A stretch of DNA of 64,000 nt from Helicobacter labetoulli (GCF_003670275.1 NZ_QXJF01000004.1:63791-127790); one strand, 5' to 3'. Positions 39,326 through 62,582 are shown, counted from the stretch's first letter. A program made the numbers and translations. Notes: generated from the letters alone by a model not told the origin.

Positions 39326-40576
39326 CTACCGCTCTTTGAGCTCATCTAAGTAATCAGCCCACCATTGCAAAAGTGGTCTCATCTGCTCTACATAATCAGC
39401 TTTATGTAGATAGGCTTGTGTAACATTATTCCCTACCCTATGATCCAACACAGCCTCTTTAATCTCAAATGGCATGTTGTGCTTGTCTTGGTGCGTATCA
39501 CAAAGGCTTCTAAAAGTTCCCCTAAAAGAGTGAAGTGTTTGCTTCCTGCCTCTTTTGGCATCTGCAAACCCCATAGAACGCAAAGCTTTATTAGCACTCT
39601 CTGACACCATCGGTTTATGTATTTTATTGTGTCCGTGGAATATCCAAACACCCCAACCTGTATTTTTTTTAATTTCCTTTAGAATCTCAATAGCTTGCGT
39701 AGGTAAAGGAAGAGAAAAATCCGGGAATGATTTCTTTTTGACTTTCATCTCGCTTCTTGGAATGGTGAGTATCTTTTTCTCAAAATCAATATAACTCCAT
39801 TTAAGCGTAGCAAGGTTTTCAGCTCTTAAGGGAATAATGCTAACAAACTTTAATGCCGATCGTATAATAGGAGAATGAATATATCCATCAATAGCTCTCA
39901 AAAGCTCTCCCAGCGTTGCTTCATCTGTAATCTTCTCATAGTGATTTGTTACTTTAGGTAAAAGAAGTTGTTTTGTGTCAATTTTGAATAGGCAATTTGT
40001 TTCTATATATCCGCGACCAAGGGCGAATTGCCATATATTGATACAATGAGTAAAAAGCCTTCTAGCAAGCTCTACCCTATAGTCTTGAATCTTTGCGATA
40101 ATATGCGTAATGTCTAAATGTGCAATATCCTCAATGTGCGTGGAACTTACAATTTTTCTATCAGAATCATATTCTGAAAAATGCGGTAAAAGGTGTAGAT
40201 CCATCATTTGCCTATTTTTTTTGAGTGTGGAATAGGTAACCTGCTTTTCTTTGAATTTAAGCCATGCTTCTACCACTAGGTGAAGTTGCCCCTCTTTCAT
40301 TTTTATTTTGGCTGCTTTGTCTAGCTTTTTATTTTCTTGTGGATCGGCTTCTGCTAGAATAAGTTTTTTGTAGCCAATAACTTTCTCTCTTGCCTGCTCC
40401 AAGGAAACAGATGGATATTGCCCAATAGTAATAAGTTTTCTTTTATCCCCAAAAGAATATCGCATTTGAAATGTTTTTGAACCCGCAGGAGATACCCTTA
40501 AGCGCAATCCATCTCTATCATTTAAGAAGTAGTCTTTCTCTTTTGGTTTAGCCTTTTTAATTTCCGTTTCCGTCAT
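39326..40576 (-). CDS. int: P4-type tyrosine integrase
   Basis: Site-specific recombinase that inserts and excises the element. The 416 residues show the N-terminal arm-binding domain of the P4 family (DRDGLRLRVSPAGSKTFQMR, and GQYPSVSLEQAREK), a central core-binding region, and the catalytic domain with Arg251 (PLRAENLATLKW), His349-x-x-Arg352 (LHSFRGTFR), His379 (LDHR) and nucleophile Tyr389 (QAYL), so all key residues are present. It begins only 11 bp after the TraN-like gene with a weak AAAGGA site, so read-through from the transfer operon is likely. It is the only integrase in the window. Confidence 0.93.
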   Translation of the reverse strand: MTETEIKKAKPKEKDYFLNDRDGLRLRVSPAGSKTFQMRYSFGDKRKLITIGQYPSVSLEQAREKVIGYKKLILAEADPQENKKLDKAAKIKMKEGQLHLVVEAWLKFKEKQVTYSTLKKNRQMMDLHLLPHFSEYDSDRKIVSSTHIEDIAHLDITHIIAKIQDYRVELARRLFTHCINIWQFALGRGYIETNCLFKIDTKQLLLPKVTNHYEKITDEATLGELLRAIDGYIHSPIIRSALKFVSIIPLRAENLATLKWSYIDFEKKILTIPRSEMKVKKKSFPDFSLPLPTQAIEILKEIKKNTGWGVWIFHGHNKIHKPMVSESANKALRSMGFADAKRGRKQTLHSFRGTFRSLCDTHQDKHNMPFEIKEAVLDHRVGNNVTQAYLHKADYVEQMRPLLQWWADYLDELKER

Positions 40577-46600: not shown

Positions 46601-48875
46601 CAGTATTAGGATCTATAATAAACTCACCGCTACCAGCAGCATTCCAATATGCTCTTACTTTTGGCAAACCTTTGATTTGCTCTAAAAGGGCATAGCTGTT
46701 GTTTGTGATTTCTTCTTCTAGGAAGTATTTATTTTTCTTTACAGAACCAAGCAAATCATTGTATCGCTTAAACACTGGAGCACTATTGCCTTCTCCGCCT
46801 TCAACCCATTTCTTACCATTGAATACTTGGTATCTATTTCCATTATTTATATATTCCGCAAGATTGAAACCTTGGTGTCTATAAAAACCTTTTGCTTGCT
46901 TATTTTCATCAAGCAAGAAGTAGTGGTAGCTTCTAAAAGCGTTATCTCTTTTTTTACACTCTTCGGTTCTTTTATCATACTCAGGTGTATTTGGGACAAG
47001 ATTGTCATAATTACAAGGTGGAAGCGTAATTAAATCCTTTGAAACGCTCTCAACCCTTACCATTACATACAAGTATGCGGGTTTATCATAGAGTGTATCA
47101 CTTGGTTTTACCCTTACAAAGAGTTTTTTATCTATCGCTGGTTTGCCATCAGCCGTTTTATTTGCCTCCGTTCTTATTGCATAAGAAGTTTCTCTTTTTT
47201 GATTGAGCGGTAAAGAGGCGTTATAGCTTTGGTTTTTAATCATATTGGCAAAGGCTAAAGATTTAGTTTCTTGTTGAATTTTGTTGTTGTAATCTCCACT
47301 TGCATCCGCCATAACTCTTGGGCGAACCGTTCCGGGAACAGCAATACCATTTTTAATGGTTTCTGTAACATTCCCTTCGCCATCATAAACCTTTTCGTTT
47401 AAAATGGGGGCATCTTGCTCTCTTGAAGTTCTGCAGCCTGTATTCGTGCAGCTCTTAGAATCTGTAAGACAGCCTTCTTGGAATCCAAAGAATTGAGCCG
47501 CATCAATGCTTGGATTTTTAAAGAGGCATTCCCCATTTGTTCTACAAGTTGCTCTACAGCCTTCTTCTGTGGAGAATGTGCCATCATCATTATCTCCAGA
47601 GCCAAATGCCTTACAAATCTCTATTGGACCTTCTGGGCTTTGGAGTAATACTCTATCAGATTTAGCACAATTCTTTCTCTTTTCATCTTTGAAGTAGAGA
47701 TTTTGTGAGCTACATGCAAATCGTTTAGTTTGAGGAATGACAAGCTCTATATCTTGGATTTCTATGAGCAAGTCTTCTTGTTTTTTATATTTTTCCTCAA
47801 CTTGGAAGCCTAGTTTTAAATCTTTTACCTTTTGAGTGAGAGTATAGCTTTTAGTTATTTGCTGGAGTGGCTTTTTATTGTTTTGGTTAGGCTTGCCATT
47901 TGTATTGCCTCCACTATTGCTGCCGGTGTTAGGTTTTTGGTTATTTTGATTAGGTTTGCCTGTATTGCCATTGTTGCTGTTGCCATTTTGATTTTTGTCT
48001 TCTTCCTCTCCAGTGGCTGTAATTTGTGTGCCATTTGCCATAACTCTTTTGTATCCGCTTTCATCAGTATATTCAAAGAAAAACAAAACAGGAGCATTGC
48101 TTTTTATCTTAAATGTAATGCCTTTTGCCTTTCTCAAGTCTGTAATGGTGCGTGTTACCTCAAAAGGCTTAGTATTGTCTTTGTTGAATGTTACCTTGCC
48201 AAGCTTTTCTATAGTGTCTTTTGAGTTAGTATCTTTAGCACTTTTTACCTCATAACATCTTCCAGCTGTATAACAATTTTTCTCACAAGCTTGCTTTGCT
48301 TTTGTTGGAGAATTGCCATTATCTGGGCTCCCATAGCTTACGCCATTAAGACTGCATTGATAGTTATAAAAAGATTGCCCTCTTGCAATATAGCAGTAAG
48401 CTCTACCTGTTGTAACAGCGGTGTTTCCTATGGATTGTGTTGCTGCCTTTACAGCCTTGTCTATTACGCCACTTCTTTTGACATCTACAAATGATTGAAT
48501 GCCCGGGTGTTTAATATTAGTGATTTTACCATCAACCATATTGCTAATATCCCCGGAGTTTGCTCTATCAGCGGCTTGTCCGCCAAACATATTTTGCATA
48601 ATCTCTTGCGTTTGAAATTCTCCGGGATTTTTTTGTTGCCCATAGATTTTAGATAAATCTTTTCCTGTTGAAATATTGCTTTGTGAGGAATTATTGCTGT
48701 TGTTGTTTCCACTGCTTCCATTATTACCTGTGTTTGGTTTTCCATTATTGTTTCCACTAGGCTTATTTGTGTTTTGTTGTTGATTTTGATTTTGTTGTTG
48801 TGCATTATTGTTTGCATTAGAGCTTGAGAACACCAAAGCTATAATACAAAGACTTGCATATAGAATCTTTTTCAC
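43674..48875 (-). CDS. Giant Cys-rich surface protein of the transfer operon (TraN-related)
   Basis: A 1733-residue exported protein (signal peptide, about residues 1-21) located between TrbC and the TraN-like gene, where F encodes TraN alone. It holds three low-complexity spacers of Asn/Gly/Gln (about residues 22-66, 290-340 and 1150-1195) and many cysteines, among them two C-x3-C-x5-C modules (CEKNCYTAGRC near 195; CRATCRTNGEC near 441) shared with the downstream protein. A central Cys cluster (about 1020-1130: AGEDCFQNPFQKKCFYDNCP) resembles TraN. The C-terminal 250 residues are aromatic-rich (TKGYWDTGWWTLHLHSYRWG), like a carbohydrate- or surface-binding region. Likely a donor surface adhesin. 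Confidence 0.6.
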   Translation of the reverse strand: MKKILYASLCIIALVFSSSNANNNAQQQNQNQQQNTNKPSGNNNGKPNTGNNGSSGNNNSNNSSQSNISTGKDLSKIYGQQKNPGEFQTQEIMQNMFGGQAADRANSGDISNMVDGKITNIKHPGIQSFVDVKRSGVIDKAVKAATQSIGNTAVTTGRAYCYIARGQSFYNYQCSLNGVSYGSPDNGNSPTKAKQACEKNCYTAGRCYEVKSAKDTNSKDTIEKLGKVTFNKDNTKPFEVTRTITDLRKAKGITFKIKSNAPVLFFFEYTDESGYKRVMANGTQITATGEEEDKNQNGNSNNGNTGKPNQNNQKPNTGSNSGGNTNGKPNQNNKKPLQQITKSYTLTQKVKDLKLGFQVEEKYKKQEDLLIEIQDIELVIPQTKRFACSSQNLYFKDEKRKNCAKSDRVLLQSPEGPIEICKAFGSGDNDDGTFSTEEGCRATCRTNGECLFKNPSIDAAQFFGFQEGCLTDSKSCTNTGCRTSREQDAPILNEKVYDGEGNVTETIKNGIAVPGTVRPRVMADASGDYNNKIQQETKSLAFANMIKNQSYNASLPLNQKRETSYAIRTEANKTADGKPAIDKKLFVRVKPSDTLYDKPAYLYVMVRVESVSKDLITLPPCNYDNLVPNTPEYDKRTEECKKRDNAFRSYHYFLLDENKQAKGFYRHQGFNLAEYINNGNRYQVFNGKKWVEGGEGNSAPVFKRYNDLLGSVKKNKYFLEEEITNNSYALLEQIKGLPKVRAYWNAAGSGEFIIDPNTGKPILRDPFRAMLGEIYVQVKTKADIPAEIIAQNNGKEPKLKGYETPNNYVIYALLSDKELTHREIAEELIVKEKTTAPTHAIYNLLEIDNKNLLIDLKSDGTMGEEIVKVYLVGNSKQLSAYANVSSREPDVGENGYLFYWWHDAKADPAKGSITNLKPDSQEIREFKQFMPATLTDYEIFADKDFSKNKTQSLKFGYGAGDYDAKADCKVMNTTSGKSERICLPWWRIEREYDEKKDKSIANADFRALMGKMKLPMQGKVVSVCTKVDPMANAIYNKERQTITCTSYYNMLAGEDCFQNPFQKKCFYDNCPVKVKENCTLTNTIGFGDLKTKVQVDDVTAAGGDINQLKETKLEVKTYGYKCPKTMNIDLNQVCLKEETVMMQPAVCQSAGNTGGTGGGSGGTGSNGNTGGGNNNAGGNSGSGQKPSLPGLDVGDAPTEHATMDEILSGKSNVVYCNTGNPVIDASGALKGFRGTCPGTRQEVTCKFDSLQTTTKTCTDPIIQKVKEEKINNIEQERVCKDVFVNVAKGETDIYKDDPSCYRSNTAADSKKGTISVNFRQDVNVTGLLISKNKESQQSVEFCTYNGTQGKMQGNCTSNSGQKTLNFISTLKDSQEILFAEQITRTDGGEDLGGWSKNLGIDATYEYGTGGKNDAMQGQICNGVGATGGNNCFTIQGIYQKGTADFDKAQKDNPNATWNAVGDIVPGKLLGSSNEYSSTAVSASVGSNRIEMLPDLRTPNFQLRWRSCGAPNIDEPSFNDVLSQGYFPTKGYWDTGWWTLHLHSYRWGVYGYYDCDGHKSVFNSHWSHHNISKVNLFLNSGAGLSILFPTPSNYEVYFFNTEGGLMHKEVIAAAKMTTNLPGQMTPIRLGDKAKLYENGQETNQRLSCSEDDLSPAGGGTMYGIHSTTGAVCPVARDRDFILKNSIGSVTIIDLDTKITTTKKLTYPLPYINRIYYGYAQSVESRRYSCCQDFN

Positions 48876-48885
48876 ATTCCCCTCC

Positions 48886-49449
48886 TTAGTTTGGATCTAT
48901 CATTTTGAAGTAATAATCAGTATAAGACTTATCTATGTCCCCTATACGCCTAAATACATCGCTGAGTGCCATATCGCCCTTGATGAGATATTTAATTTCG
49001 CATTCTTTAAAGGCAAAGTTTTCGCCTTCATGGCAATAGCCTAATGCGTAGGCAGGAACTCTTTTTAGTTTAAATTCTCTGAATATGAGTGGATGAATCT
49101 TAATGATTGCATCTGTGTTTTTAGCCTCTTTTATGGCATCTTGCAAATAGGTTTTAAAATCATCTGGAAAACCATTAAGCACAACAAAGCCTTGCACTTG
49201 AACCTTTTTGTCAATAAGCTTTTGAAGTGAATTGCTAAAGCCAGATGCCGCCTTAGCTCCCATACTTGAGGAGGTAAGATAGAAAATAGTAAATACCTTC
49301 TTCTGAGACTTAGCTAGGAGTTCTTTTTTCTCCTTATAGACTTGTAGCTGTTTTGGTGTCATTAATTGCTCTCGTATCTCCTGTATAGTTTTTCCTTGAG
49401 CAAATCCAAAACTACAAATGCAAGCTGTGAGTAATAGGTATCTTAGCAT
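48886..49449 (-). CDS. trbC: F-type TrbC pilus assembly protein
   Basis: Periplasmic thioredoxin-fold protein required for F-pilus assembly, usually working with TraW. The start is ATG 49449, preceded by AGGAG with 7 bp; a longer frame overlaps traU without a site. Signal peptide MLRYLLLTACICSFGFAQ, then a thioredoxin-like domain: VFTIFYLTSSSMG, VQGFVVLNGFPDDFK, IKIHPLIFREFKLKRVPAY with the cis-Pro at the family position, and GDMALSDVFRRIGD. About 187 residues. It overlaps traU by 7 bp, keeping the F order traW-traU-trbC-traN. Confidence 0.88.
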   Translation of the reverse strand: MLRYLLLTACICSFGFAQGKTIQEIREQLMTPKQLQVYKEKKELLAKSQKKVFTIFYLTSSSMGAKAASGFSNSLQKLIDKKVQVQGFVVLNGFPDDFKTYLQDAIKEAKNTDAIIKIHPLIFREFKLKRVPAYALGYCHEGENFAFKECEIKYLIKGDMALSDVFRRIGDIDKSYTDYYFKMIDPN

Positions 49450-50480
49450 TTTGTTGCTCCTGCACAGAAGTCTCTTTGTCTCCATATCCAAAAGAAAAAG
49501 GCATCTTTGTCCGCTGGAGTGCTTTTAAAATCGTAGTGAAAACGCATCGCTCCAAAACGCTTGGCACTTCCATAGGCAAGTTGAATATAGTATTGAGATT
49601 TTAAAAGCATTGGGAACATTTTATCTCCACACATTGTGTCTGGAAGCTCATTGCCTCCTGTGAATGTCATACTCGCATTACTTGTTTTAAACAAACGCAA
49701 TGTTTCATGTTGCGAAGCAATTTGTCTTAGGGCTATCATTTCGCTGTTTTCTATGGGATCGCCTAATCTAGTCCAGCCTGTATCACTTGAACCCATATTT
49801 CCCCTACAACCATCACAAAAATACAAAGAATTAAGCGGATAACCTGCTGTTGCTGAGGTGCAGTCTGCCACACAAGCCATATCAGCCACCATATTTGTGA
49901 AAAATGCCCTAGAAGTAGGTTTGGCTGAATTAGTTGAATTTGATAGGATTTCGTTATTGTAGAGTGGATCTACATCGCTGATATAATTTGCTGTGATTTC
50001 ACTATTCCTATCAAAACATACAATATCTGGCAAGGCAGCGGCTATCAAAGCAAGAATAGGGAAAGTTACAATATTGGCTTGGCGGAATCCAGAAGTATCT
50101 CCTTCTCCAGCGGCTCCTGACAAATCAGATCTGCTTGTGCCTCTTTTTGAAAGCACATCGCTATCTAATTCCATACCCAAGCCTACAAGGTGCATAGGCT
50201 GATTTGATGATGAGAATCCAAGTAATGGCTCAATAAGTGTCGCTGCGAAACCTACGGGTAATGGACCATCTCCTTTAGGACAAGTGCATACTTTAAAACT
50301 GATACTGAGCTTATCTAAGAAAAAAGACCAGTCTGCACTATTCATAAAATCAATCATAGGAGCATTTGAGCCTGTGCGATCTCCAAAGTTATTTCCGTGA
50401 TCGCTTCCATCTGTTCCAGTGCTATCTTGTGCTGCTGTCAAAAAAGAAAGGCTAAGGGCTAAAGCAAGTATATATTTCAT
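49443..50480 (-). CDS. traU: TraU pilus assembly / DNA transfer protein
   Basis: Periplasmic Cys-rich protein needed for DNA transfer in F-type systems. Signal peptide, about residues 1-17. Family features: KVCTCPKGDGPLPVGFAATL, AALPDIVCFDRNSEITANYI then SDVDPLYNNEIL, Cys-rich MACVADCTSATAGYPL and LYFCDGCRGNMGSS, and the ending FFFWIWRQRDFCAGATKC. Length 345, the usual size. Start and stop overlap the neighbours by 4 bp (traW) and 7 bp (trbC). Confidence 0.9.
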   Translation of the reverse strand: MKYILALALSLSFLTAAQDSTGTDGSDHGNNFGDRTGSNAPMIDFMNSADWSFFLDKLSISFKVCTCPKGDGPLPVGFAATLIEPLLGFSSSNQPMHLVGLGMELDSDVLSKRGTSRSDLSGAAGEGDTSGFRQANIVTFPILALIAAALPDIVCFDRNSEITANYISDVDPLYNNEILSNSTNSAKPTSRAFFTNMVADMACVADCTSATAGYPLNSLYFCDGCRGNMGSSDTGWTRLGDPIENSEMIALRQIASQHETLRLFKTSNASMTFTGGNELPDTMCGDKMFPMLLKSQYYIQLAYGSAKRFGAMRFHYDFKSTPADKDAFFFWIWRQRDFCAGATKC

Positions 50481-51085: not shown

Positions 51086-51222
51086 TATTGTTCCTTCCCT
51101 TGCTCTTGAGTCTGCGACTCTGTGGCATTTACTTCCTGCTGTGTGTTTTGTGAGTCGCCTGCATTTGTAGCTTCAACTTTATATTCAGGGTTTTGTCCTT
51201 GAATAGCCTTCCCGGTGCAATG
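51085..51222 (-). pseudogene. Severed 3' end of the gene upstream of traW
   Basis: A short minus-strand frame, open from about 51222 to the TAA at 51087-51085, reading HCTGKAIQGQNPEYKVEATN followed by a Gln/Thr/Asn-rich tail to GKEQ. It has no start codon or ribosome site and its stop overlaps the traW start. If the block 51218-53993 is flipped, this tail is joined in frame to the 142-codon gene at 53566-53994, giving one 186-codon gene with a Gln/Asn-rich C-terminal region. Confidence 0.65.
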
Positions 51223-51618
51223 GATATGCTTAATACTATTGTTACGCTAGAAGGAATGGCTAAAAATACGGATTATGACCCACAACAGAGAGCTGAATTT
51301 ACGAATCAAGCTGCAGATCTTGAGCTTATTTTAGCAAAAAGTAATGCCTATTATTGCGCTCAATATTTCTTGGCAAATCTTCAAGCTCAGAAAACTGAAG
51401 GCGTAGCTCTTGTTACAGGAAAAGGCAGTATGACGACACAAGAAATGACAAGAACTATCAGTATCCTTGAGAAATATTTAAAGGGTCTATATGATGATCT
51501 TATGGGTAAAACAAAGAAGTTGCACGAATTTAAGACGCCTTTTGAGGCAGCTGATAAAGCCATGAAGGAAATGAGAAACAAAGCTTCTAGCGCTAAAGCA
51601 AAAGCTAAGGGGCAATAA
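51193..51618 (+). pseudogene. 5'-truncated gene at the inversion edge, possibly the C-terminus of traH
   Basis: A plus-strand frame to TAA 51618. A TTG at 51193 and ATGs at 51220 and 51226 are possible starts, but none has a ribosome site and there is no signal peptide, while all its neighbours are exported. This suggests that the 5' part was lost at the CAATGG junction (51218-51223). The visible part is helical: MDMLNTIVTLEGMAKN, ADLELILAKSNAYYCAQYFL, then a Lys-rich tail. Size, helicity and the position after traH in the restored order would fit the C-terminal region of TraH, though not in frame with the remaining TraH part. Confidence 0.5.
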
Positions 51619-52289
51619 TGTTAAGAGCGCTTGTTTGTTTTTCTTGTATTTTTGTCTTTGGACTTGCCCAAGAGATTCAGAATGTGTCTCAGCAGGAAAT
51701 GGATAAAATATTTTCCGACATTCGTCAAAATGTTGGCGGTGATGCGGAGATTGTTGAGGCAATAACTTATGAGGCAGGTTCAGAGGCAGTGCCACAGGAT
51801 TTGCCTAGAGCTCTCAGCGTTTATGCAAGACTCTACAAAAAAGACTATAATCCTATTGCAGCCTATAAGCTTGGCATGTTTGCTTGGAACATTAAAAAGA
51901 AGCCTCAAGACATAGACAAAACGCTTGTTGAAATGCTAGAGCAAGTCGAAGGATTAAACCCACAAACCTATTTTTCTAGGGGCTCACAGCAAGCAAAAGA
52001 AATTCGATACCGCGAAGTCGCACGCCTGAATGGTATATTGCTAGGTATATATCTTTTTGATGCGGATAATATCCTAGAAAGCATCAAGGCATTAAACATT
52101 AGAAGTGATATTGCTAACCATTCTCTTTCACAGCTTTATCTTGCCTTTAACTATCTTAAACTCAAAGATACAAAAATGGCAAACTTTTATCTTAATAGAG
52201 TCTGCTTCCACGAGAATCCAGAGCCTAGTGTTGTAAATTTCTGCAAGAACTCAGATTCTCTAAAGCGAACAGCTGCATTAAGGCAATAA
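51618..52289 (+). CDS. Exported Sel1/TPR-like repeat protein
   Basis: A 223-residue protein with a signal peptide (MLRALVCFSCIFVFGLAQ) and helical pairs that resemble Sel1/TPR units (LPRALSVYARLYKKDYNPIA; AAYKLGMFAWNIKKKP; LSQLYLAFNYLKLKDTKMAN). Such repeats mediate protein contacts, here probably in the periplasm. The start overlaps the preceding stop (TAATG) and the next gene starts right after its stop, so it belongs to the same coupled set now on the plus strand. No match to a standard F transfer gene is obvious. Confidence 0.65.
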   Translation: MLRALVCFSCIFVFGLAQEIQNVSQQEMDKIFSDIRQNVGGDAEIVEAITYEAGSEAVPQDLPRALSVYARLYKKDYNPIAAYKLGMFAWNIKKKPQDIDKTLVEMLEQVEGLNPQTYFSRGSQQAKEIRYREVARLNGILLGIYLFDADNILESIKALNIRSDIANHSLSQLYLAFNYLKLKDTKMANFYLNRVCFHENPEPSVVNFCKNSDSLKRTAALRQ

Positions 52290-52922
52290 ATGAATAAAGT
52301 AGTGCTCATTGGAATTTGTCTTGCCTCTTTGGTAACATTGGGTTTTTCATCGCAATATAAATGCAAAATTCACTCTGATGTGCTTACAGCTATTGCAGCC
52401 ATAGAAGGGCACCCAAAGCGTGAAGTTGGCTACCCATATATCATCAGTTTTAATAAAAACAGCGATATGAATAAGCTCAAAAAAGACGAGCGATGGTTTG
52501 CCCTTGATAAGCGAACAATAGACTGCACGAGCTTAGAGAATTGCATTTCTGTTTATGATGAATTAAAACAGCTTAAGGTTACTAATATTGATTTGGGTCC
52601 TTTCCAAATCAACCCAATGTTTTTTCAATATGATTCCAGCGTATATTTCACGCTAGAAGAAAGCAAACAAAAAGCGTGTGAAATTCTTACTGAAATCAAA
52701 AACACAAAGGGTTGGAGCTGGGAAAGTCTGGCTAGCTATCATTCAAGCACAAAAAAGCATAATGAGGCTTACCAGAATAGACTAAAGCAATATGTAGCCA
52801 AAAAGCAAAACACAAAACAGCAACAACAGCAAGTCGCCGCAGAAAACAAGGTTTCACCCAAAGCTGAAAAAACCTTGAGATTCAAGGTGAATGTTAGAGT
52901 TGCAAGCAACGAGGAGCTTTGA
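52290..52922 (+). CDS. Lytic transglycosylase-like protein of the transfer system
   Basis: A 210-residue exported protein (signal peptide, about 1-21) with an SLT-type lysozyme fold. The candidate catalytic Glu39 lies in VLTAIAAIEGHP; the family patch GPFQINPMFFQY (like G-x-x-Q-I-N-P) and the late SWESLASYHSSTKKHNEAYQ (like the Y-N-A-G-x-x-x-Y region) are present. It would open peptidoglycan for the pilus channel, as Orf169/P19-type enzymes do in F and R1. A Gln-rich C-terminal tail follows. It overlaps the next gene by 4 bp. Confidence 0.8.
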   Translation: MNKVVLIGICLASLVTLGFSSQYKCKIHSDVLTAIAAIEGHPKREVGYPYIISFNKNSDMNKLKKDERWFALDKRTIDCTSLENCISVYDELKQLKVTNIDLGPFQINPMFFQYDSSVYFTLEESKQKACEILTEIKNTKGWSWESLASYHSSTKKHNEAYQNRLKQYVAKKQNTKQQQQQVAAENKVSPKAEKTLRFKVNVRVASNEEL

Positions 52923-53569
52923 TGAAAAAAATATTAATACCCATAGCTATTATTGTAAGTGTTTGCGGGCTTTTTGCGAGTGTGCCTCAAAAACAAAAGC
53001 CAAAAAAGCTTTATGGATTTGAGCACTTCTATATTGCTTCTCTGCCAGATGGCGCGAGCAAAAATATACCGCAAACACCTCTTTATCAAGAAGCTTTGTC
53101 CTTGTATTACAATACAGACAAACACAAGCCTGAAAAATTCACATACAGGGAAAATGGCAAAAGGGTGAGTAAGCAAGTTGCCTTTCCAGACTTTGAAAAG
53201 GTGAGAAAAACATTTTTGAAAAGTTACATAGAGGAAGGCAACAAAGCGGCTGGTTTTATGGCTGCGTATGTCCATAAAAACTATGGAGATACCTACAACC
53301 TTAAGGGACAGCTTGAATACTTCAATAATGTGGCTGCCTTAGCAAAAGATGGAAATTGCTTTGGCTATGTTGAGAGTGCGAAGTATTTTTCTGAAGGAAT
53401 TGCAGATATTTCCTATAACGAAAAGCAAGCACTCAAAATTTTAAGAATCGCAGAGAAAAAATGTGCCAACAACCCTGATTATTCTAAGCGAATTGCTAAG
53501 GAGTTGTTGATACACAAAAATGGGTTCTACAAAGAAAAATATGAGGCAAAACAAAAGGAGAAAAAATGA
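52919..53569 (+). CDS. Exported Sel1-like repeat protein
   Basis: A 216-residue protein with a signal peptide (MMKKILIPIAIIVSVCGLFA). The second half has Sel1-like helical pairs: GNKAAGFMAAYVHKNYGD, CFGYVESAKYFSEGIADISY, KQALKILRIAEKKCANNPDY. It overlaps both neighbours by 4 bp (ATGA type). Together with the protein at 51618-52289 it makes a pair of repeat proteins around a transglycosylase. The role is not known; a scaffold for the periplasmic part of the transfer channel is a guess. Confidence 0.65.
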   Translation: MMKKILIPIAIIVSVCGLFASVPQKQKPKKLYGFEHFYIASLPDGASKNIPQTPLYQEALSLYYNTDKHKPEKFTYRENGKRVSKQVAFPDFEKVRKTFLKSYIEEGNKAAGFMAAYVHKNYGDTYNLKGQLEYFNNVAALAKDGNCFGYVESAKYFSEGIADISYNEKQALKILRIAEKKCANNPDYSKRIAKELLIHKNGFYKEKYEAKQKEKK

Positions 53570-53994
53570 AACCATTTCAAAATACATTTCAAGAAAAGAT
53601 GGCTAACTTTAGCTTAAAATGGCAGCTTTGGATATTAAGAAAGGCATTTCAGCCTGAAGATCCTTATAAAGAGCAAAAACTAGAAGCCTTTATGCACAAG
53701 ACATTTGGCATTACAGAGCGAATTACATATTTTGCTTGTGGGCTCTTTATAGGCATACCTGACCCAAGAACATTTCTTGTTGCTTTGGTAAGTATTGCTA
53801 TTTTGTTTATTATTATGCAGGGCATCAAAACAAGAAAAGAAATGCTCGCTAGAATGAGCGCTCAGGCTAATGTTGCACCACAACAAGCTCAACCGCAACC
53901 ACAAGCACAAATGCAAGCTCAAGCACAACAACAAGAGCTAAATCCTAAACCTAAACAAAACAAAGCTAACTCTTTTGTTGAAAGTTGCCATTGA
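53566..53994 (+). CDS. Membrane protein of the transfer operon, 3' end severed by the inversion
   Basis: 142 codons ending prematurely at the CCATTG junction (final codons AGT TGC CAT TGA). The N-terminal 60 residues are cytoplasmic-looking (MKPFQNTFQEKMANFSLKWQ), then one strong membrane helix (about 68-86, FLVALVSIAILFIIMQG), then a Gln/Ala/Pro-rich linker. In the flipped arrangement the frame continues for 44 more residues into the tail now at 51219-51085 and couples to traW. F encodes TrbI, a small one-helix protein, directly upstream of traW; the position fits but the sequence is not clearly TrbI. Confidence 0.65.
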   Translation: MKPFQNTFQEKMANFSLKWQLWILRKAFQPEDPYKEQKLEAFMHKTFGITERITYFACGLFIGIPDPRTFLVALVSIAILFIIMQGIKTRKEMLARMSAQANVAPQQAQPQPQAQMQAQAQQQELNPKPKQNKANSFVESCH

Positions 53995-54734
53995 TTCGCA
54001 ACAGTTGTCGCTATAAGAGGCGTATAATCATAAAGCTTAAATATGCTACCAAACATTTTTTCAGCCTCTTTTTTCTTTTGGTCTTTTTCCAACCCAGAAC
54101 TTGTTGCCTTGTCAAGCCCATCCTTTATAGTCTGCTCCACTTTATCAGCACTCTTATTCAATATAGCCTGAGCATTGTCTATAGCTCCCTGCATTCCCCA
54201 TCCGGGTCTAACTTTAACCGTACTTAAAGCCTTGTTGCCCAATCCTTGCCCAATGTTACAAGCATTTGCCAGCAAGCCTTGAATTTGCTGAATCATACGC
54301 TTGATTCCAGAGAACACATGTTCTATGCTAGGCATAGAATTGACAAGTGCTATAAATAAACCATACACAATGGCACCGGAAGCATTGCCCAGCTGTTCTG
54401 CAATGTCTTCTAGTCCTAACAAGTCAATAAACCCGCCGTCAAGTGTAAAACTACCGCATGTCGCCTTCACTGAAGGCTCCTTGAAATCTGCCCAAGGTTG
54501 AAACACTGCAGAATTGGCATCCACCTTAAACTCGATACTGCCACCATAATAAGTGCCATCTATGGACTGTGGGCTAGTAATGTTTGAAAAATTTGCACCA
54601 AGGCTACCTATATCACTTGCCTGCCCAATAGGGCTATTACCCCACCCCTTTTTAAAAGCATCGATAAAACCTGCTTCAGCCGTGCTTCCAAACAAGCAAA
54701 GCGCTAAAGCTAAAGATATAGAATGTCTTTTCAT
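53919..54734 (-). pseudogene. traH: TraH N-terminal part, truncated by the inversion
   Basis: TraH is a periplasmic/outer-membrane-associated pilus assembly protein of about 460 residues in F. Here 271 codons remain. Signal peptide to AEA (about residue 22). Then the family pattern: YYGGSIEFKVDANSAVFQPW, KATCGSFTLDGGFIDLLGLE, a hydrophobic helix (GAIVYGLFIALVNSMPSIEH), IQGLLANACNIGQGLGNKAL. True traH sequence ends near residue 248 at the CAATGG junction (53993-53988); the last 23 codons are antisense to the neighbouring gene. The C-terminal half is absent here. Overlaps the traF-like gene by 4 bp. Confidence 0.72.
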
Positions 54735-55905: not shown

Positions 55906-57198
55906 TTAATCCTTTTCCTTTGGTGTATTGTCTGACAATTTATTATAGAGGGCTTCTTGATACGCATAGGCATCGCCATAATTCTCTACAAACTGATTAA
56001 TTTTCTTTAGTCCAAAATCTATCTCTGCGAACAGCTTATCCATTAAAGACAATAAGTCTGGCGTGAAAGGAATATTTTTTACATCCCATAACAGAATATT
56101 GTTTTCAACTTGCTCTAATACTTTATTAGAGTGTTCATACAGGTTTATAATAGATTGCAAGGCATCAAAAGCTTGCTGTGCTTCTTGCTGAAAAGCAAGA
56201 CAATATTGTATATTATCATTGTAAATACTATGGGAGTAAGTGATTTGAAACTGAATGAATTTAAAGCATTTCGCATCCCAACGAGAAAAAGCCTCCTTGT
56301 AGAATCGTTCAATCTCTAGCAGCCTAGCCCTTATAGCATTTTCATCTCCAAAAATTACTCTTGTTACAACTCCAAACAATCTGTTTCGCTCATTATAATC
56401 CGTCCAGCTCATGTGCTTCAGCAAAAGCAAATCAGAATAGTCCAAATGTTTTCTATCATTAAGCACAGCACTTACACGCAAAGCTCTTACGATAAAATCA
56501 GGTCCAAACTTTCTGTCACTCGCCTTAATGTTATTTCTGCTGATTTCTGATTTTAATCTCAAATAGCAATCCACAATCTCTTCGCCTATTTCAACTTCTT
56601 CTGCCATTTCTTGGGCTTTTTGTATGTCAGCCATTGTGAATGTTTCGCCCATAGTCTTTGTTCTATCAAAGACACCGCGCACATAGTTTTTCATATTAGA
56701 TTCTTCTTGGATACGCTGAACCTCATACCACACTAAAATTCTGTCTGAAAAAGGCTCAATCTTTTCGCCAAATGGCAATTCGTTTGATGCTGAGAACAAA
56801 GAATTAAGTGGCACAGGAATACCTTTACCCCCTATAGTCCATCTTCTTTCATTTAAAAGTGCAAGCAAGGCTACAAGCAACTCATCTGTTGCTTTAAACA
56901 TTTCATCAAAGAATATAAAAGGATGCACAAGAAGCGTTTGTTCTTTGGGGGTATCCTCTGTTCCCACAAGCTGCTTTTCTTGCGTTTCTTTTGTCATAAG
57001 AATTTCCCAATAAGTTGCATCACTTATTGTTTTGCTGATAGTTTGAATCGCATAGGTTTTTCCAACACCGGGCTTCCCTATAAGAAACATGTGATGTCTT
57101 GCAAAGATGCAGAGCATAGTGAGGCGTATAAGCTCTTCTCTTTCAATGAGCTTACCCTCTAATACTTTGATGACATTGGCTACCTTTTCCTTAAACAT
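55906..57198 (-). CDS. MoxR/RavA-type AAA+ ATPase inside the transfer operon
   Basis: A 430-residue AAA+ ATPase. Walker A GKPGVGKT (41-48), Walker B FIFFDEMFKA (Asp98-Glu99), sensor 1 LFSASNELPFGEKIEPFSDR, and the MoxR/RavA hallmark LLALLNERRWTIGGKGIPVP. A C-terminal helical region of about 150 residues follows. MoxR ATPases act as chaperones that mature protein complexes, usually with a VWA-domain partner; none is encoded in the window. It sits directly between the coupling protein (no gap) and the traF-like gene. I know of no such gene in standard F-type operons. Confidence 0.87.
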   Translation of the reverse strand: MFKEKVANVIKVLEGKLIEREELIRLTMLCIFARHHMFLIGKPGVGKTYAIQTISKTISDATYWEILMTKETQEKQLVGTEDTPKEQTLLVHPFIFFDEMFKATDELLVALLALLNERRWTIGGKGIPVPLNSLFSASNELPFGEKIEPFSDRILVWYEVQRIQEESNMKNYVRGVFDRTKTMGETFTMADIQKAQEMAEEVEIGEEIVDCYLRLKSEISRNNIKASDRKFGPDFIVRALRVSAVLNDRKHLDYSDLLLLKHMSWTDYNERNRLFGVVTRVIFGDENAIRARLLEIERFYKEAFSRWDAKCFKFIQFQITYSHSIYNDNIQYCLAFQQEAQQAFDALQSIINLYEHSNKVLEQVENNILLWDVKNIPFTPDLLSLMDKLFAEIDFGLKKINQFVENYGDAYAYQEALYNKLSDNTPKEKD

Positions 57199-58989
57199 TT
57201 AGAACCCTTGCACTTGGATTTTCTTGTTGAGATCTAGCAATCGTGCGAACATTCTCTCTGTATCTACCTCATCCATAACAATCAAGCCTTCACTTGGATC
57301 TAAGTCTGGCACATAAGCAAATGAGATTTGATACCTTCTATGAAGGTTCTTCAAAAAACCTTCCGCTGGTCTTAGGTTGGAGATAGACTTGCTTGATAGA
57401 ATACTTTGTGTGTTAGAAGAGAAGTTAATGCGAGCTTCTCCCCCTCCATGCACGATATTGGTGTTAGTAACTGAAGTTTCCCCAAACATATCGTGTATCT
57501 TTCTAATAGAATCTGTTTCGTTCATCTTAAAGACAAAATATGTATTAAGAGAATCTTGAGATACCTTAGCTAAGGTTGTGCCTAGCCTTGCTTCTAAGTC
57601 TGCAAGAGATTGCGTATAAATAAAGAGTGTCATACCCAAACCTGCCATTTTATTGAGCACAGCTTCTATCCCTTGATACAATGAGCTTTCCCCTTCATCT
57701 AAATGCACATAGAGTCTTCTTTTGTTGATTTCACGCCCTGTAACTGAAGTTGTAGCATAGACAGATTCAAGCATCTTCATAAAGATTTTATTGACATTGT
57801 CAGCCACCTTTTTAAATCTCAAGGGTGAAGGGTGCATAAGAATAGCAAACCCCCTTTCAGAGTTCGCAAGCCTTGAAAGAAGTGGGTTAATACGCACCGT
57901 GCAGAACATTGAGCCCAAGAATCCATTTGCCACATCGGACAAGAAATTCACAAGCGAAACTGAGATTTTTGAGTGGTATTCTTTTGGTATCTCAAAGACC
58001 GTCTGTAAAAGCATCATAGCTTCAGTTTTCATTAGAGATAGCTCAGGTGTTCCAGCGATCGTGCTTTCAACCGTGCCTTTAAGTGCTGAAAGGTTTTCGT
58101 GCAAACAATAATGGAGCAAGTCTTTAAAAGTAACAAGTGTGCGGTTAAACATATTTTGTTTGCCAAGCTCCACATAGGACATATCTGCTGAAAATCGTTC
58201 AGCCACATCAGGGTTAGCTATGCTATTTTCAACATCAAAGCTTAAAAGCTCTTTGCCTCGCAAGTGCTTAATCTTAATATATTTTTCTTGCTCATATCTT
58301 TCTTTTTTTGCCACACCTTCCCCTGTTGGATCCATTGCTTTTTCAAGGAAGTTCAGCGAATAGAGTATGGTTTTTAGAATAGTAAAGGTATAGCCAGAAT
58401 AAAAGGCATTGTCACCCTGTGTGTTTGGATAAAGGATAGTGGCAACAAGGTTGGCAATATCATCATCACCTAGTCCATAGATAGGATTAAAATATTCTGT
58501 CGCATTAGGAAACACTGGATTTATATAAATCAAATCTGTTTCTCTGCCAGCTTCTCTTAGAAAATTCACTACTTGATTTAAAATTTCTTGATCTATACCA
58601 CCTTTTGGGTCGTTAATAATAACATTATCTCCATGGAGAAGGTTCTGTCGTATGATATTAAGCATAAGCTTTGTTTTACCCATACGAGTTGTCCCATAAA
58701 CAATCGCGTGGTTTATAAAGTCTCTCCAAGGCAAGACAATGGTGTGTTTATCAAATGTCTCAAGATTAATGCCTATACCCAAATACAAGCCGTCCTTGAT
58801 GTTCTTGTTGATAAACTTTGTTTCAAGCTCATACTTCTTGTTGAATAGAGAATTGATTTTTTTGTTAATCTTGTCCTCTTGCCACCTAGAAAGATGTCCT
58901 TTATCTTTCTTTGTGATAAGCTCTTTCCTTGCACTTTTGATTTCCTTATCGTTATTGATGATTTTTTCTTTCAGTGGTGTAAAAAACAT
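57199..58989 (-). CDS. traD: TraD-type type IV coupling protein
   Basis: ATPase that delivers the relaxase-DNA complex to the transfer channel. The 596-residue protein has Walker A YGTTRMGKTKLMLNI (Lys105), a following NDPKGGIDQEI motif typical of TraD/VirD4, the Walker B region RLYVHLDEGESSLYQG, and late TQSLADLEARLG. Unlike F TraD it has no obvious N-terminal membrane helices; instead the first 75 residues are highly charged (KEKIINNDKEIKSARKELIT), so membrane attachment would need a partner. This fits the SXT/ICE-like branch loosely. The ATG shares its A with the traC stop (TAATG). Confidence 0.87.
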   Translation of the reverse strand: MFFTPLKEKIINNDKEIKSARKELITKKDKGHLSRWQEDKINKKINSLFNKKYELETKFINKNIKDGLYLGIGINLETFDKHTIVLPWRDFINHAIVYGTTRMGKTKLMLNIIRQNLLHGDNVIINDPKGGIDQEILNQVVNFLREAGRETDLIYINPVFPNATEYFNPIYGLGDDDIANLVATILYPNTQGDNAFYSGYTFTILKTILYSLNFLEKAMDPTGEGVAKKERYEQEKYIKIKHLRGKELLSFDVENSIANPDVAERFSADMSYVELGKQNMFNRTLVTFKDLLHYCLHENLSALKGTVESTIAGTPELSLMKTEAMMLLQTVFEIPKEYHSKISVSLVNFLSDVANGFLGSMFCTVRINPLLSRLANSERGFAILMHPSPLRFKKVADNVNKIFMKMLESVYATTSVTGREINKRRLYVHLDEGESSLYQGIEAVLNKMAGLGMTLFIYTQSLADLEARLGTTLAKVSQDSLNTYFVFKMNETDSIRKIHDMFGETSVTNTNIVHGGGEARINFSSNTQSILSSKSISNLRPAEGFLKNLHRRYQISFAYVPDLDPSEGLIVMDEVDTERMFARLLDLNKKIQVQGF

Positions 58990-61900
58990 TAGAAATTCTC
59001 CTCTTCTTGCATTTGAAATTGATAACCTTGTCCTGCAAAGTTTTCTAACATATTGTTTGGCTCATTAATAAAGCGACCTTGGTAGAAGTTAAACTCAAGC
59101 TTTCTCGCTAGATTTAAAAGGCTTCTATTTTCTATGTGGGCTGCAAGAATATTGATATTTAAAGCTTTGGCTATAGGCGACATAGCTTTAAGCTCCATAA
59201 GCTTATCGTTGTCATTTTGAGCCGCCATAATAAGCTCTCCATCTATTTTAAGCACCGTGGGTTCAATAGCCTTAACAAGACCGGGCGTAAAGTTGTCAAA
59301 ATTCAAGTGATCTATAGCTATCATAAAACCTGCTTCTCTTGCCTTATTACAAAAATGCACAGAACGCTCTTTGTCTTCCCTGCTTTCAAAAGCAGAAGCT
59401 GGAATTTCAAGAATCACATTGTGTGCGTAATCGCCTAGAATGCTGATAAGATTTTTAAGATGTTCGTGGCTAATCTCTTCAATCATCACATTTATTGAGA
59501 ATACAAAATTCTTTTTAGAATAGAAGTCTAACGCTTTTTGGATACATTTTCTAGCAAGAAGAGGCATCATATCTTGCTCTAGTGCCACTTCTCCAAAGTC
59601 TTTAAAACCATAAAGTTCGTTTGTCCTAGCATCTCTAATGTAAAGATGCACTTCATAAAATGCTGGTGTTCCACTATCATCAATAATCATTTGAGATTGT
59701 GGCTCTACTAAGTCTTGGTTGATAGCATTCCTAATTTTCTCCATCCAGTATTTGACCGTGGAGCTTCTATCACCTTCCTTAAGCCTTGCAAGCATTGTTG
59801 CCTTATCAAGCCCTTCTTTATGGAAACCTAGCATTTTAGTGGCTTCTTGAGGGGTTAAACCAAACTCTTTTTGGAACTCAAGCTTGAGATTTTTGTCTTT
59901 TGGATTGGTTGTAAACATTGCCGCTTCCTGTGGGGTTGCTTTCAATAAAAGCACTTCGGAAACCTTATCGTTGTAGATATACATAACCTCAGAATAGTGC
60001 GGAGCTCTGTTTTTAACTGAAGTCATTTGTTTTTTTCTAAAATCTCCATACCCAAAGAATAAGCCATTTTCAGCAAAGTTTTGCTCAACCTTAGAAGCAT
60101 TAAGCTCTAGAATAAACTTATGGGTTGTATTCACCCATACAGCCTTTGAATTGACATTATGCAAAAAGTCTGCAGGGTTTTGTGTAATGACCGTGAGTGA
60201 GCCATTATACTTTCTTACACGCCTTGCAAAGTCATCGAGGTATTTTGCAAACATAAAGTTAGCTAGAACAGGAGCAGCCTCATCAATGATAACTGATTTT
60301 CTTTGCCCTTTACCATTGCTTGCAGAATCTAAGAACATTTCCTGTGCGGCTCTCTCTAGCATACTCATAAAGACGATAAAATACAACACGCCCTTTGGAG
60401 CGAGCTCTTCTAGCTCAATCACACAAAAGTCATTTTTGACATTGATGTTATAAGCCCCATTGTAATATGTGTAAAACTTACCGCCCTCTGTAATATAAGG
60501 TTCAAGGGCAAGAATCATATCTTGGATAAGATCCACAATCCTATCGTGTCTTCTTACCTCAGCCTCTTTGGCAAATCCTTTAAGAGCTTCACCAACATCA
60601 CGCATACCTGCGTCTCTACCTCTACGATAAAATGCTACTTGAATGGCTCCTTCTATGAGGGCTGCCATTTGGGCTTCAGAGCTTTCTTTGGCGACATCAT
60701 CTTTCATACTTAAATCTCTACCACACATTGCACCTACAATGATAACCATAGATGAGAAGGCATCTTCTTCTATCATCTCTACATAGCCATTTACAGCAAG
60801 CTCTGCCAAAGGGAATACCTCATAAATGGCTTGAATACTTTGTCCCTCAAATCCTTCTATATGCACTTTTTCGGTAACGATGTTTGTAAAGAAATTAAGA
60901 CATTTGGCATTAGCACTCCCATCAGAATTTTCTTTGGAGAAGTGGATAAATTCACCGCCTATTTCATCGCACAATGGCTTATAGCTCTTACCTATATCAA
61001 AAATCATACTTCTTACGCCTGCTTGTGCGTTAGAGGCTTGAATAGAGTTTGAAAGGAATGATTTCCCAGTTCCTGAAGGACCGATAATACAAGCATTGTA
61101 GTTAGAATCTGATGCCCATAAATCAAGTCCAACTACTTGTCCGCTTCTGCCTAAGAAACGCAAAATAGGAGAGCCTATACCCTTAAAGCTTCCTATGAGT
61201 GGAACAATGGCTGAAATATTGCTTGAGAACATAAGGTTGTATCGGTTAAGATAATTCTTTGTTTCCAAATCAAATTGAAAAGGCATACTCCACAATAAAA
61301 CCTGCAAAGCAACAATGCCATAGTCTTCTTGTGCGATTTCCCAACCTCCAAAATCAATAGAGGCAAATTTTGTCTTAATACGCCCTATAGCATTATCTAG
61401 CTTTTCAGGAGAATTTTCAAAGATAGTCAGTGAATACATACCTTCATAAATTGGCTCTTTATCCTCATCAATGTATTGGATAATATTGTGGGATTCCTGC
61501 ATAGTCTTTTTGATTTTTGGCATAAGTGCATAAGTGCCATCAGGTATCTTTTTCTCTGCTGATACATTAGCTCTTGCTCTTTTAAGTATTTTTTCTTTTA
61601 GTCTATCAGGGTCATCAATATGCACGGTAAGTGTTGTTAAAAATCTGCAAGGAAGCGGGTTTTGAAATTCCCCTTCTAAGTCAAAGAAAGCATTTTGCAC
61701 ATCAAGGGGTGTGGTATGCTTTGGAAACTTGTCTGTTGTCAGCACTTTAGCATAAGTCTTTTCGCCTATGTGGATAATACTATTTTCGTTATTTACCCTT
61801 ACTCTAGCCCCTTTAACAAGCTGGACATTCATTCTTTGGTGTGGATCATAATCTTTAAGTTTGAAGTCCTCTTTAAAAATTTCGCCATAAAGAGATACTA

Positions 61901-62582
61901 CAAGTTTTGGGCTTAAAGGCTCTGGGCTTAAATCTGTTAAAACCCCTTGGATTTGCCCATAAATACTTCTTATTTTAGCGATTGAAGTGTCTTTAGGGAA
62001 AATCACCGTCATAAAAGAAATAAGGTTTCTTGCTCTAAAATCAGCACCATTATCAAGCATTGAGCTTTTCGCCCATTTTTTCATCTTTTGGATTCTATCA
62101 TCACGCATCATTTTTAGGCTAGAAGCATTTAGGACATTAATGTCTTCTTGGGTATTAGCTTCAATAGCCTCAAGATATTCACTGATATTATCAGAAGCAT
62201 AGGTGCTTATTTGCACGGCAACATTTTTTATATCAATGGTTTTAAAAGCAGATTTGATAAGCTTGATTGTGCTATCTCCTACATGTGGAGGAGGTGTAAT
62301 TTTGAAGCCTATAGCCCTTCTCCCAGTGCAAAGATTATAAATTCCAAAATCATCACTTTTTTGCTCGTAAGAATGAAGGAGTATCATTTTAGACAAGGTG
62401 CTCGTGTCGTTGAGCGCCTTAATAACGCTTTTTGTTAAGCCACCTTGTTGCTCGTGCCATTCATCTGGTAAAAGCCAGTCCCAAAACTGCTTGAGATAAG
62501 GCATAATCTTTTGTAGTCGTTTTGGTTGTTTAACATAAAAGAATAAAGCAACAATAGCGACAATGAGAACTAAATAGAACAT
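58989..62582 (-). CDS. traC: TraC/VirB4 transfer ATPase fused to a degenerate EAL domain
   Basis: TraC is the cytoplasmic ATPase that powers pilus assembly; F TraC has about 875 residues, this protein 1197. Membrane helix at 2-16 (FYLVLIVAIVALFFYV), TraC N-terminal domain (GRRAIGFKITPPPHVGD), Walker A IIGPSGTGKSF (Lys507) and Walker B SVIIDEAAPVLANF (Asp767-Glu768). From about residue 972 a second domain matches the EAL fold in order: FSINVMIEE (Asn1031), VILEIPASAF (Glu1059), IAIDHLNFDNF (Asp1091), LKIDGELI (Lys1112, Asp1114), AAHIEN (Glu1151), FYQGRF (Gln1168). EAL itself reads KDF (994-996), so hydrolysis is unlikely. Confidence 0.85.
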   Translation of the reverse strand: MFYLVLIVAIVALFFYVKQPKRLQKIMPYLKQFWDWLLPDEWHEQQGGLTKSVIKALNDTSTLSKMILLHSYEQKSDDFGIYNLCTGRRAIGFKITPPPHVGDSTIKLIKSAFKTIDIKNVAVQISTYASDNISEYLEAIEANTQEDINVLNASSLKMMRDDRIQKMKKWAKSSMLDNGADFRARNLISFMTVIFPKDTSIAKIRSIYGQIQGVLTDLSPEPLSPKLVVSLYGEIFKEDFKLKDYDPHQRMNVQLVKGARVRVNNENSIIHIGEKTYAKVLTTDKFPKHTTPLDVQNAFFDLEGEFQNPLPCRFLTTLTVHIDDPDRLKEKILKRARANVSAEKKIPDGTYALMPKIKKTMQESHNIIQYIDEDKEPIYEGMYSLTIFENSPEKLDNAIGRIKTKFASIDFGGWEIAQEDYGIVALQVLLWSMPFQFDLETKNYLNRYNLMFSSNISAIVPLIGSFKGIGSPILRFLGRSGQVVGLDLWASDSNYNACIIGPSGTGKSFLSNSIQASNAQAGVRSMIFDIGKSYKPLCDEIGGEFIHFSKENSDGSANAKCLNFFTNIVTEKVHIEGFEGQSIQAIYEVFPLAELAVNGYVEMIEEDAFSSMVIIVGAMCGRDLSMKDDVAKESSEAQMAALIEGAIQVAFYRRGRDAGMRDVGEALKGFAKEAEVRRHDRIVDLIQDMILALEPYITEGGKFYTYYNGAYNINVKNDFCVIELEELAPKGVLYFIVFMSMLERAAQEMFLDSASNGKGQRKSVIIDEAAPVLANFMFAKYLDDFARRVRKYNGSLTVITQNPADFLHNVNSKAVWVNTTHKFILELNASKVEQNFAENGLFFGYGDFRKKQMTSVKNRAPHYSEVMYIYNDKVSEVLLLKATPQEAAMFTTNPKDKNLKLEFQKEFGLTPQEATKMLGFHKEGLDKATMLARLKEGDRSSTVKYWMEKIRNAINQDLVEPQSQMIIDDSGTPAFYEVHLYIRDARTNELYGFKDFGEVALEQDMMPLLARKCIQKALDFYSKKNFVFSINVMIEEISHEHLKNLISILGDYAHNVILEIPASAFESREDKERSVHFCNKAREAGFMIAIDHLNFDNFTPGLVKAIEPTVLKIDGELIMAAQNDNDKLMELKAMSPIAKALNINILAAHIENRSLLNLARKLEFNFYQGRFINEPNNMLENFAGQGYQFQMQEEENF

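Follow-up and report, generated by a model that had tools for sequence, protein, structure and literature searches.

A TraC-like conjugation ATPase fused to a degenerate EAL domain in an F-type conjugative element of Helicobacter labetoulli

The traC-EAL gene

A 64,000-nucleotide stretch of the H. labetoulli genome (NZ_QXJF01000004.1, positions 63791-127790), referred to here as the window, lies in contig C36 of the 2.09 Mb host genome and contains part of a putative integrative conjugative element. One of its transfer genes encodes a conjugation ATPase of the TraC type that continues into an EAL domain, the domain of phosphodiesterases acting on bis-(3',5')-cyclic dimeric guanosine monophosphate (c-di-GMP). 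The parts of this gene, in window coordinates, are as follows; the fusions mentioned are the homologues described below.

58989..62582, minus strand: traC-EAL gene, 1197 residues, F-type VirB4/TraC ATPase with a C-terminal degenerate EAL domain
61272..62345, minus strand: TraC_F_IV N-terminal region, residues 80-437 (Pfam PF11130, E = 3.7e-23)
61059..61082, minus strand: Walker A motif GPSGTGKS, residues 501-508, read from the sequence (G501, G504, G506, K507 and S508 invariant in nine fusions)
60279..60296, minus strand: Walker B region, ending in D767 and E768 (both invariant in nine fusions)
59058..59741, minus strand: degenerate EAL domain, residues 948-1175 (Pfam PF00563, AlphaFold2 model and PDB matches)

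A first reading of the window, made from the sequence only, had proposed a TraC-EAL fusion in continuous frame. This is confirmed: positions 58989-62582 form a single frame of 1,197 codons, which passes from TraC into the EAL domain without a stop, and both parts have Pfam matches. The protein is 100% identical to a match on a contig of Helicobacter magdeburgensis. TraC does not end before residue 960, a possibility that the sequence-only reading had raised against itself. Chance or misassembly as the source of the fusion is ruled out by independent homologues in several genomes and in a complete plasmid.

The TraC_F_IV region, a match to the Pfam TraG P-loop domain (P-loop_TraG; best stretch residues 686-908) and Walker motifs A and B are all present, which identifies the motor part as an F-type TraC/VirB4 protein. 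Its score against NCBIfam TIGR02746 is 374 bits, below the equivalog cut-off of 567 bits, and the protein is therefore classed as a TraC-family relative on a divergent branch and not as a strict equivalog. The match to Pfam EAL PF00563 (residues 948-1175, E = 5.6e-26) reaches 91.8 bits, about three times the gathering cut-off of 31.3, so that the hidden Markov model search suggested with the sequence-only reading gave a significant hit. The domain starts near residue 945, earlier than the residue of about 972 first proposed.

Predicted fold and active-site residues

An AlphaFold2 model of residues 924-1197, made with an alignment of seven sequences and with the use of viral EAL proteins, has a predicted local distance difference test (pLDDT) score of 83.6 and a predicted template modelling score of 0.80, and shows the TIM barrel expected of an EAL domain. 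In a Foldseek search of the PDB, the matches listed are all EAL domains and include structures from LapD and FimX. Target-normalised template modelling (TM) scores are about 0.77-0.85 for the listed LapD and FimX EAL structures, with up to 0.85 against the LapD EAL domain.

Four positions in the window protein are of particular relevance to activity and ligand binding.

59652..59654, minus strand: E977, the Glu that begins the real EAL triplet (EVH, residues 977-979), retained in all 11 fusions
59640..59642, minus strand: Y981, which by alignment replaces the Arg of ExLxR, a c-di-GMP contact in known receptors
59307..59309, minus strand: H1092, which replaces the second Asp of DDFG, an Asp lost in all 11 fusions
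59139..59141, minus strand: A1148, which replaces the first Glu of ExxE (RocR E352), a Glu lost in all 11 fusions

When aligned to intact EAL domains, the window motif reads FYEVHLYIR against KYEVLMRI, and the metal-binding Glu, E977, is present. The triplet had earlier been placed at KDF (residues 994-996); this was mistaken, as KDF lies downstream of the real motif, F-Y-E977-V-H-L-Y981. The remaining assignments in the sequence-only reading (N1031, E1059, D1091, H1092, K1112, D1114, A1148, E1151 and Q1168) all agree with the alignment. Metal-site residues E977, N1031, E1059 and D1091 and pocket residues Q964, K1112, E1151 and Q1168 are retained, while H1092 and A1148 leave the catalytic set of an active EAL phosphodiesterase incomplete. 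Catalytic degeneracy is a trait of receptors of the FimX/LapD type, and the window domain shares it. A second such trait, the Arg after the EAL motif, is missing in the window copy and present in five of the 11 fusions. In LapD this Arg (Arg450) is at the centre of the c-di-GMP site (PMC3032553). The FimX contacts are Leu477, Arg479, Asp507, Glu654 and Tyr673 (PMC3527489), and Arg479 is the counterpart of the Arg replaced by Tyr981.

The fusion family and its origin

Campylobacterota genomes and 72,556 plasmids were searched for the same fusion. This revealed a conserved family of 11 complete members, the window copy included, in four Campylobacterota families. Six are from Helicobacteraceae (the window, G005, G371, G299, G162 and G284); 6 of the 121 genomes of the host's family carry the fusion. 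The G005 copy is almost identical to that of the window. Three belong to a second family (G047, G515 and G520), one to a third (G239) and one to a fourth (G245), and the G245 protein is the same as that on the Malaciobacter mytili plasmid pAMYT. A further copy, in G509, is cut by a contig end. Apart from pAMYT, none of the 72,556 plasmids has a TraC-EAL fusion, and a scan of viral contigs with TraC-EAL found one unfused TraC and no fusion. The unfused TraC proteins that were retrieved end before the EAL domain; one of them, in G589, belongs to the same branch as the fused TraCs.

The EAL parts of all 11 fusions match Pfam EAL. In the EAL tree they form one group (support 90/91), nested inside the stand-alone EAL domains of Campylobacterota (97/95), and the main subclades recur in the TraC tree. 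Because the fusion domains form one moderately supported group, it is likely that the EAL domain was captured once, from a Campylobacterota c-di-GMP enzyme, and has since been inherited with TraC.

Comparison of residues across the family reveals a consistent pattern. Positions are given in what we take to be RocR numbering, checked by motif. The same numbers for E352 and E355 are used in PMC12943098. The D296 and E352 positions are lost in all 11 fusions, whereas E175, N233, E355 and Q372 are kept in every one; D295 and K316 are kept in 10, Q161 in nine, and E265 in 10, with Asp in the remaining one. Pocket positions make up four of the six invariant columns of the domain (hypergeometric 5.6e-5, a value that does not account for constraint from the fold). 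Ten stand-alone Campylobacterota EAL domains keep the full residue set apart from E355, which varies. As all 11 fusions lack the same two catalytic carboxylates, the EAL part appears to be a non-catalytic, receptor-like module, in keeping with the earlier view that it is not an active hydrolase.

An active c-di-GMP phosphodiesterase, for which the EAL Glu, the Asn and one metal site are present, is rejected on these residues as extremely unlikely, since Asp296 and Glu352 are lost throughout and mutation of the Glu352 equivalent is reported to abolish the activity of TBD1265 (PMC12943098).

The surrounding conjugative element

The following genes lie around traC-EAL.

57199..58989, minus strand: traD-like coupling protein (Pfam TrwB_AAD_bind and TraG-D_C); its start and the traC stop share 1 nucleotide by open reading frame coordinates
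55906..57198, minus strand: MoxR-type AAA ATPase, following traD
53919..54734, minus strand: traH (Pfam TraH, E = 5e-13)
49443..50480, minus strand: traU (Pfam TraU, E = 1.7e-35)
48886..49491, minus strand: F-type trbC (Pfam TrbC_Ftype, E = 5.2e-11)
39326..40576, minus strand: tyrosine integrase at one end of the element (Pfam Phage_integrase and Arm-DNA-bind_3)

The region also encodes TraB-like (TrbI) and TraG_N proteins, together with weaker matches to TraV, TraW and TraF. The integrase and the F-type genes (TraU, TrbC, TraH, TraG_N, TraB-like and TraD) point to an integrative conjugative element with a mating-pair formation system of type F (MPF_F). It extends beyond the 64-kb window, within which there is no tRNA; no clear attachment repeats were found near the integrase. 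At the place expected for TraN (40588-48875, minus strand) are genes for two very large exported-looking proteins of 1035 and 1733 residues, without a Pfam match. The tra region also includes five small genes on the other strand that have no clear Pfam families (51193-53994, plus strand). As in the window, traC and traD are followed by an AAA ATPase gene in pAMYT, G239 and G589.

c-di-GMP genes in the hosts and in related transfer operons

TraC-EAL is the only EAL protein found in the host genome. Neither a PilZ protein nor a canonical GGDEF protein (diguanylate cyclase) was found in the assembly, whose sole GGDEF-like protein (L002:727-1905, plus strand, contig C41) has a degenerate GGGRF signature. 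Similar proteins, of about 360-400 residues, are present in related Helicobacteraceae genomes. G005 and G371 resemble the window's host, each with a degenerate protein as its sole GGDEF-like protein and with no EAL domain besides that of the fusion. A single canonical GGDEF protein is present in each of G299, G162 and G284, with a second EAL protein in G299 and G162. In Helicobacter an active cyclase is reported from one species only (PMC9239204). The fusion protein has no Arg179 (the ExLxR Arg) in any of the three cyclase-less hosts (the window, G005 and G371), and has it in five of the eight others.

Several relatives have further c-di-GMP genes beside the transfer genes. The transfer region of pAMYT that contains TraC-EAL also encodes a GGDEF-EAL protein, whose EAL domain is intact and whose GGDEF domain is weak and looks degenerate (L006:33723-34961, plus strand). 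In G520, whose element also has TraC-EAL, a stand-alone intact EAL gene lies near traU in the tra operon (L095:4235-4975, minus strand). The gene that comes immediately after traC-EAL, traD and moxR in G239 (L043:13342-16335, plus strand) encodes a topoisomerase with a canonical GGEEF cyclase domain fused to it. At the same place in the operon of G589, beside its unfused TraC, a 1336-residue frame encodes a topoisomerase that has two GGDEF domains (L099:11651-15658, plus strand). No such c-di-GMP enzyme gene is seen in the Helicobacter elements or in the stretches read from G047 and G515. Since the hosts of these relatives have tens of GGDEF genes each, a single such neighbour could be chance; the repeated place after moxR is harder to explain in this way.

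The sequence-only reading had suggested a nucleotide sensor or docking module that ties pilus assembly to c-di-GMP or to another EAL partner. At the level of the family, gene context supports this: c-di-GMP enzymes are encoded in the transfer operons of relatives, and a separate EAL gene is present in the tra operons of IncC, IncA, pAQU1 and pQBR55. For this host, a c-di-GMP sensor is disfavoured by the lack of a canonical cyclase, PilZ or other EAL protein and by the loss of the Arg. A chromosomal EAL partner is excluded here, as TraC-EAL is the only EAL protein found in the genome.

Possible role of the EAL domain

The explanation preferred here, though only tentatively, is that a dead EAL domain, captured most likely once, was ancestrally a c-di-GMP-responsive regulator on TraC and has become a docking or oligomerization surface in this Helicobacter. 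Each subunit of TraC would have this domain as a regulatory module. Where the host of a relative makes c-di-GMP, binding of the nucleotide in the retained pocket may alter EAL-EAL or EAL-partner contacts, and this could in turn switch the assembly or ATPase activity of TraC. TraC-EAL would be analogous to FimX acting on PilB, but within one protein. The dimer state of FimX EAL domains can change with ligand (PMC3527489), and the FimX EAL-PilZ-PilB complex offers a precedent for regulation of a pilus ATPase by a dead EAL domain (PMC8389850). VirB4 proteins form hexamers of dimers with a VirB11 ring beneath, and F-type systems are without VirB11 (PMC12624023); for this reason the EAL domains might sit on the face of the VirB4 hexamer that VirB11 takes up in other systems. 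In the window's host, the domain would be kept mainly as a docking or oligomerization surface on TraC.

Several observations weigh against parts of this proposal. A single capture has only moderate support. TraC of G589, which is unfused, could fall either inside or outside the fused group; one capture followed by loss is possible, as is capture after G589 split off. The E. coli K-12 proteins YdiV (RflP), CsrD and BluF, used here as controls, act via protein contact, and to our knowledge their EAL domains do not bind c-di-GMP. As all three also keep E175, E265 and Q372, retention of the pocket in the fusions is partly structural, and an argument for a ligand pocket from invariance alone is weakened. 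The three cyclase-less hosts form one clade, so the correlation between Arg179 and host cyclases is phylogenetically confounded and the link only suggestive. Nor is loss of the Arg strictly tied to host c-di-GMP: two cyclase-rich hosts, G047 and G515, have Ser and Gln, respectively, at this position. Finally, the AlphaFold2 model of the full-length protein (pLDDT 49) is too poor for placing the EAL domain on TraC.

A broader form of the proposal is that F-type elements of Campylobacterota encode a c-di-GMP circuit of their own, in which a topoisomerase-fused cyclase, an EAL phosphodiesterase of the tra operon and the dead EAL receptor on TraC would set and read a signal that turns transfer on or off, the Helicobacter copies being an eroded remnant. 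This is conceivable, if on balance doubtful.

It is unlikely that the EAL fold was recruited from the start as a nucleotide-independent protein-protein surface for TraC or a partner, as in YdiV or BluF. The universal loss of catalytic residues would fit such an origin, as would a host without c-di-GMP enzymes and the resemblance of the window copy to BluF at key positions (D-H for DD, a non-Arg residue, Tyr981, after the EAL motif, and Ala1148 in place of E352). Set against this, the Q161 and E355 positions are lost in all three controls and kept in nine and 11 of the 11 fusions, respectively, the Arg is kept in five fusions, and the same operons of three relatives encode c-di-GMP enzymes. Because the controls lose Q161 and E355, the fusions look more like nucleotide receptors than YdiV, CsrD and BluF do.

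The metal-site and pocket residues retained in the window protein would also be compatible with a working c-di-GMP receptor in this host, with the signal coming from an unrecognized cyclase or being met after transfer to another species. This seems quite unlikely in a genome without a canonical GGDEF, PilZ or other EAL protein, and with Tyr981 in place of the Arg that is central to the LapD site (PMC3032553).

A vestige, carried along and removable without effect, is improbable. The catalytic residues are lost, and divergence is faster in the EAL domain (49% identical to its counterpart in G371) than in the ATPase part (74%), but frame, length and pocket residues persist in lineages down to 18% EAL identity, and none of the 11 complete members has a stop or truncation. 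In the closest pair, G000 and G005, the EAL domains differ by seven synonymous and three nonsynonymous changes; the ratio of nonsynonymous to synonymous rates (dN/dS) of 0.10, from these 10 changes only, suggests purifying selection on the domain.

Comparison with known systems

The window protein shares with F-type TraC (VirB4 family, MPF_F) the TraC_F_IV and TraG P-loop domains, the Walker motifs and the tra operon neighbours, and differs in having about 250 extra residues, which form the EAL domain. FimX is a degenerate GGDEF-EAL receptor that acts through PilZ on the type IV pilus ATPase PilB. It resembles TraC-EAL in its EAL fold and in the coupling of a dead EAL domain to a pilus-assembly ATPase; TraC-EAL, however, is one polypeptide with an unrelated ATPase, has no GGDEF, REC or PAS domain, and occurs in a host without PilZ. 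LapD, another degenerate EAL receptor for c-di-GMP, is among the closest of the listed PDB folds but keeps Arg450 by the EAL motif (PMC3032553) and has HAMP and membrane signalling parts that TraC-EAL lacks. YdiV, CsrD and BluF share with the fusions the loss of the D296 and E352 equivalents, and differ in the Q161 and E355 positions and in not being fused to a secretion ATPase.

The open-access full text searched contained no description of a TraC-EAL or VirB4-EAL fusion, in agreement with the sequence-only reading, and EAL genes within F-type tra operons were likewise not described there. SXT-type elements are cited in PMC3915882 as encoding separate cyclases, and polyvalent proteins of mobile elements can contain GGDEF domains (PMC5512222). 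The physical link of a second-messenger domain to the ATPase of a conjugation machine has no earlier description in the open-access literature searched. MshE-type ATPases of type IV pili bind c-di-GMP. If the preferred explanation is true, conjugation would respond directly to the state of the cell, in parallel to these ATPases and to FimX-PilB. That related elements in several bacterial families keep this fusion suggests a coupling, in some mobile elements, between the transfer machine and signalling in the cell.

An EAL domain is also found in the F-type transfer operons of IncC (L088:7956-8627, plus strand), IncA (L087:9001-9678, plus strand), pAQU1 (L090:5947-6651, plus strand) and pQBR55 (L077:17226-17906, minus strand). 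In contrast to TraC-EAL, it is there the product of a gene of its own, located between trbC and traU. Those checked, IncC and pQBR55, have intact catalytic residues, except for Leu at the Q161 position of pQBR55 in an automatic alignment; the pQBR55 domain lies outside the TraC-EAL group in the tree. IncC plasmids spread multidrug resistance, and these separate genes suggest that the theme reaches clinically important elements. Relatives of the trbC-traU EAL genes have matches in 1,347 plasmid records, not all of them in tra operons, and 1,023 of these records are typed as conjugative.

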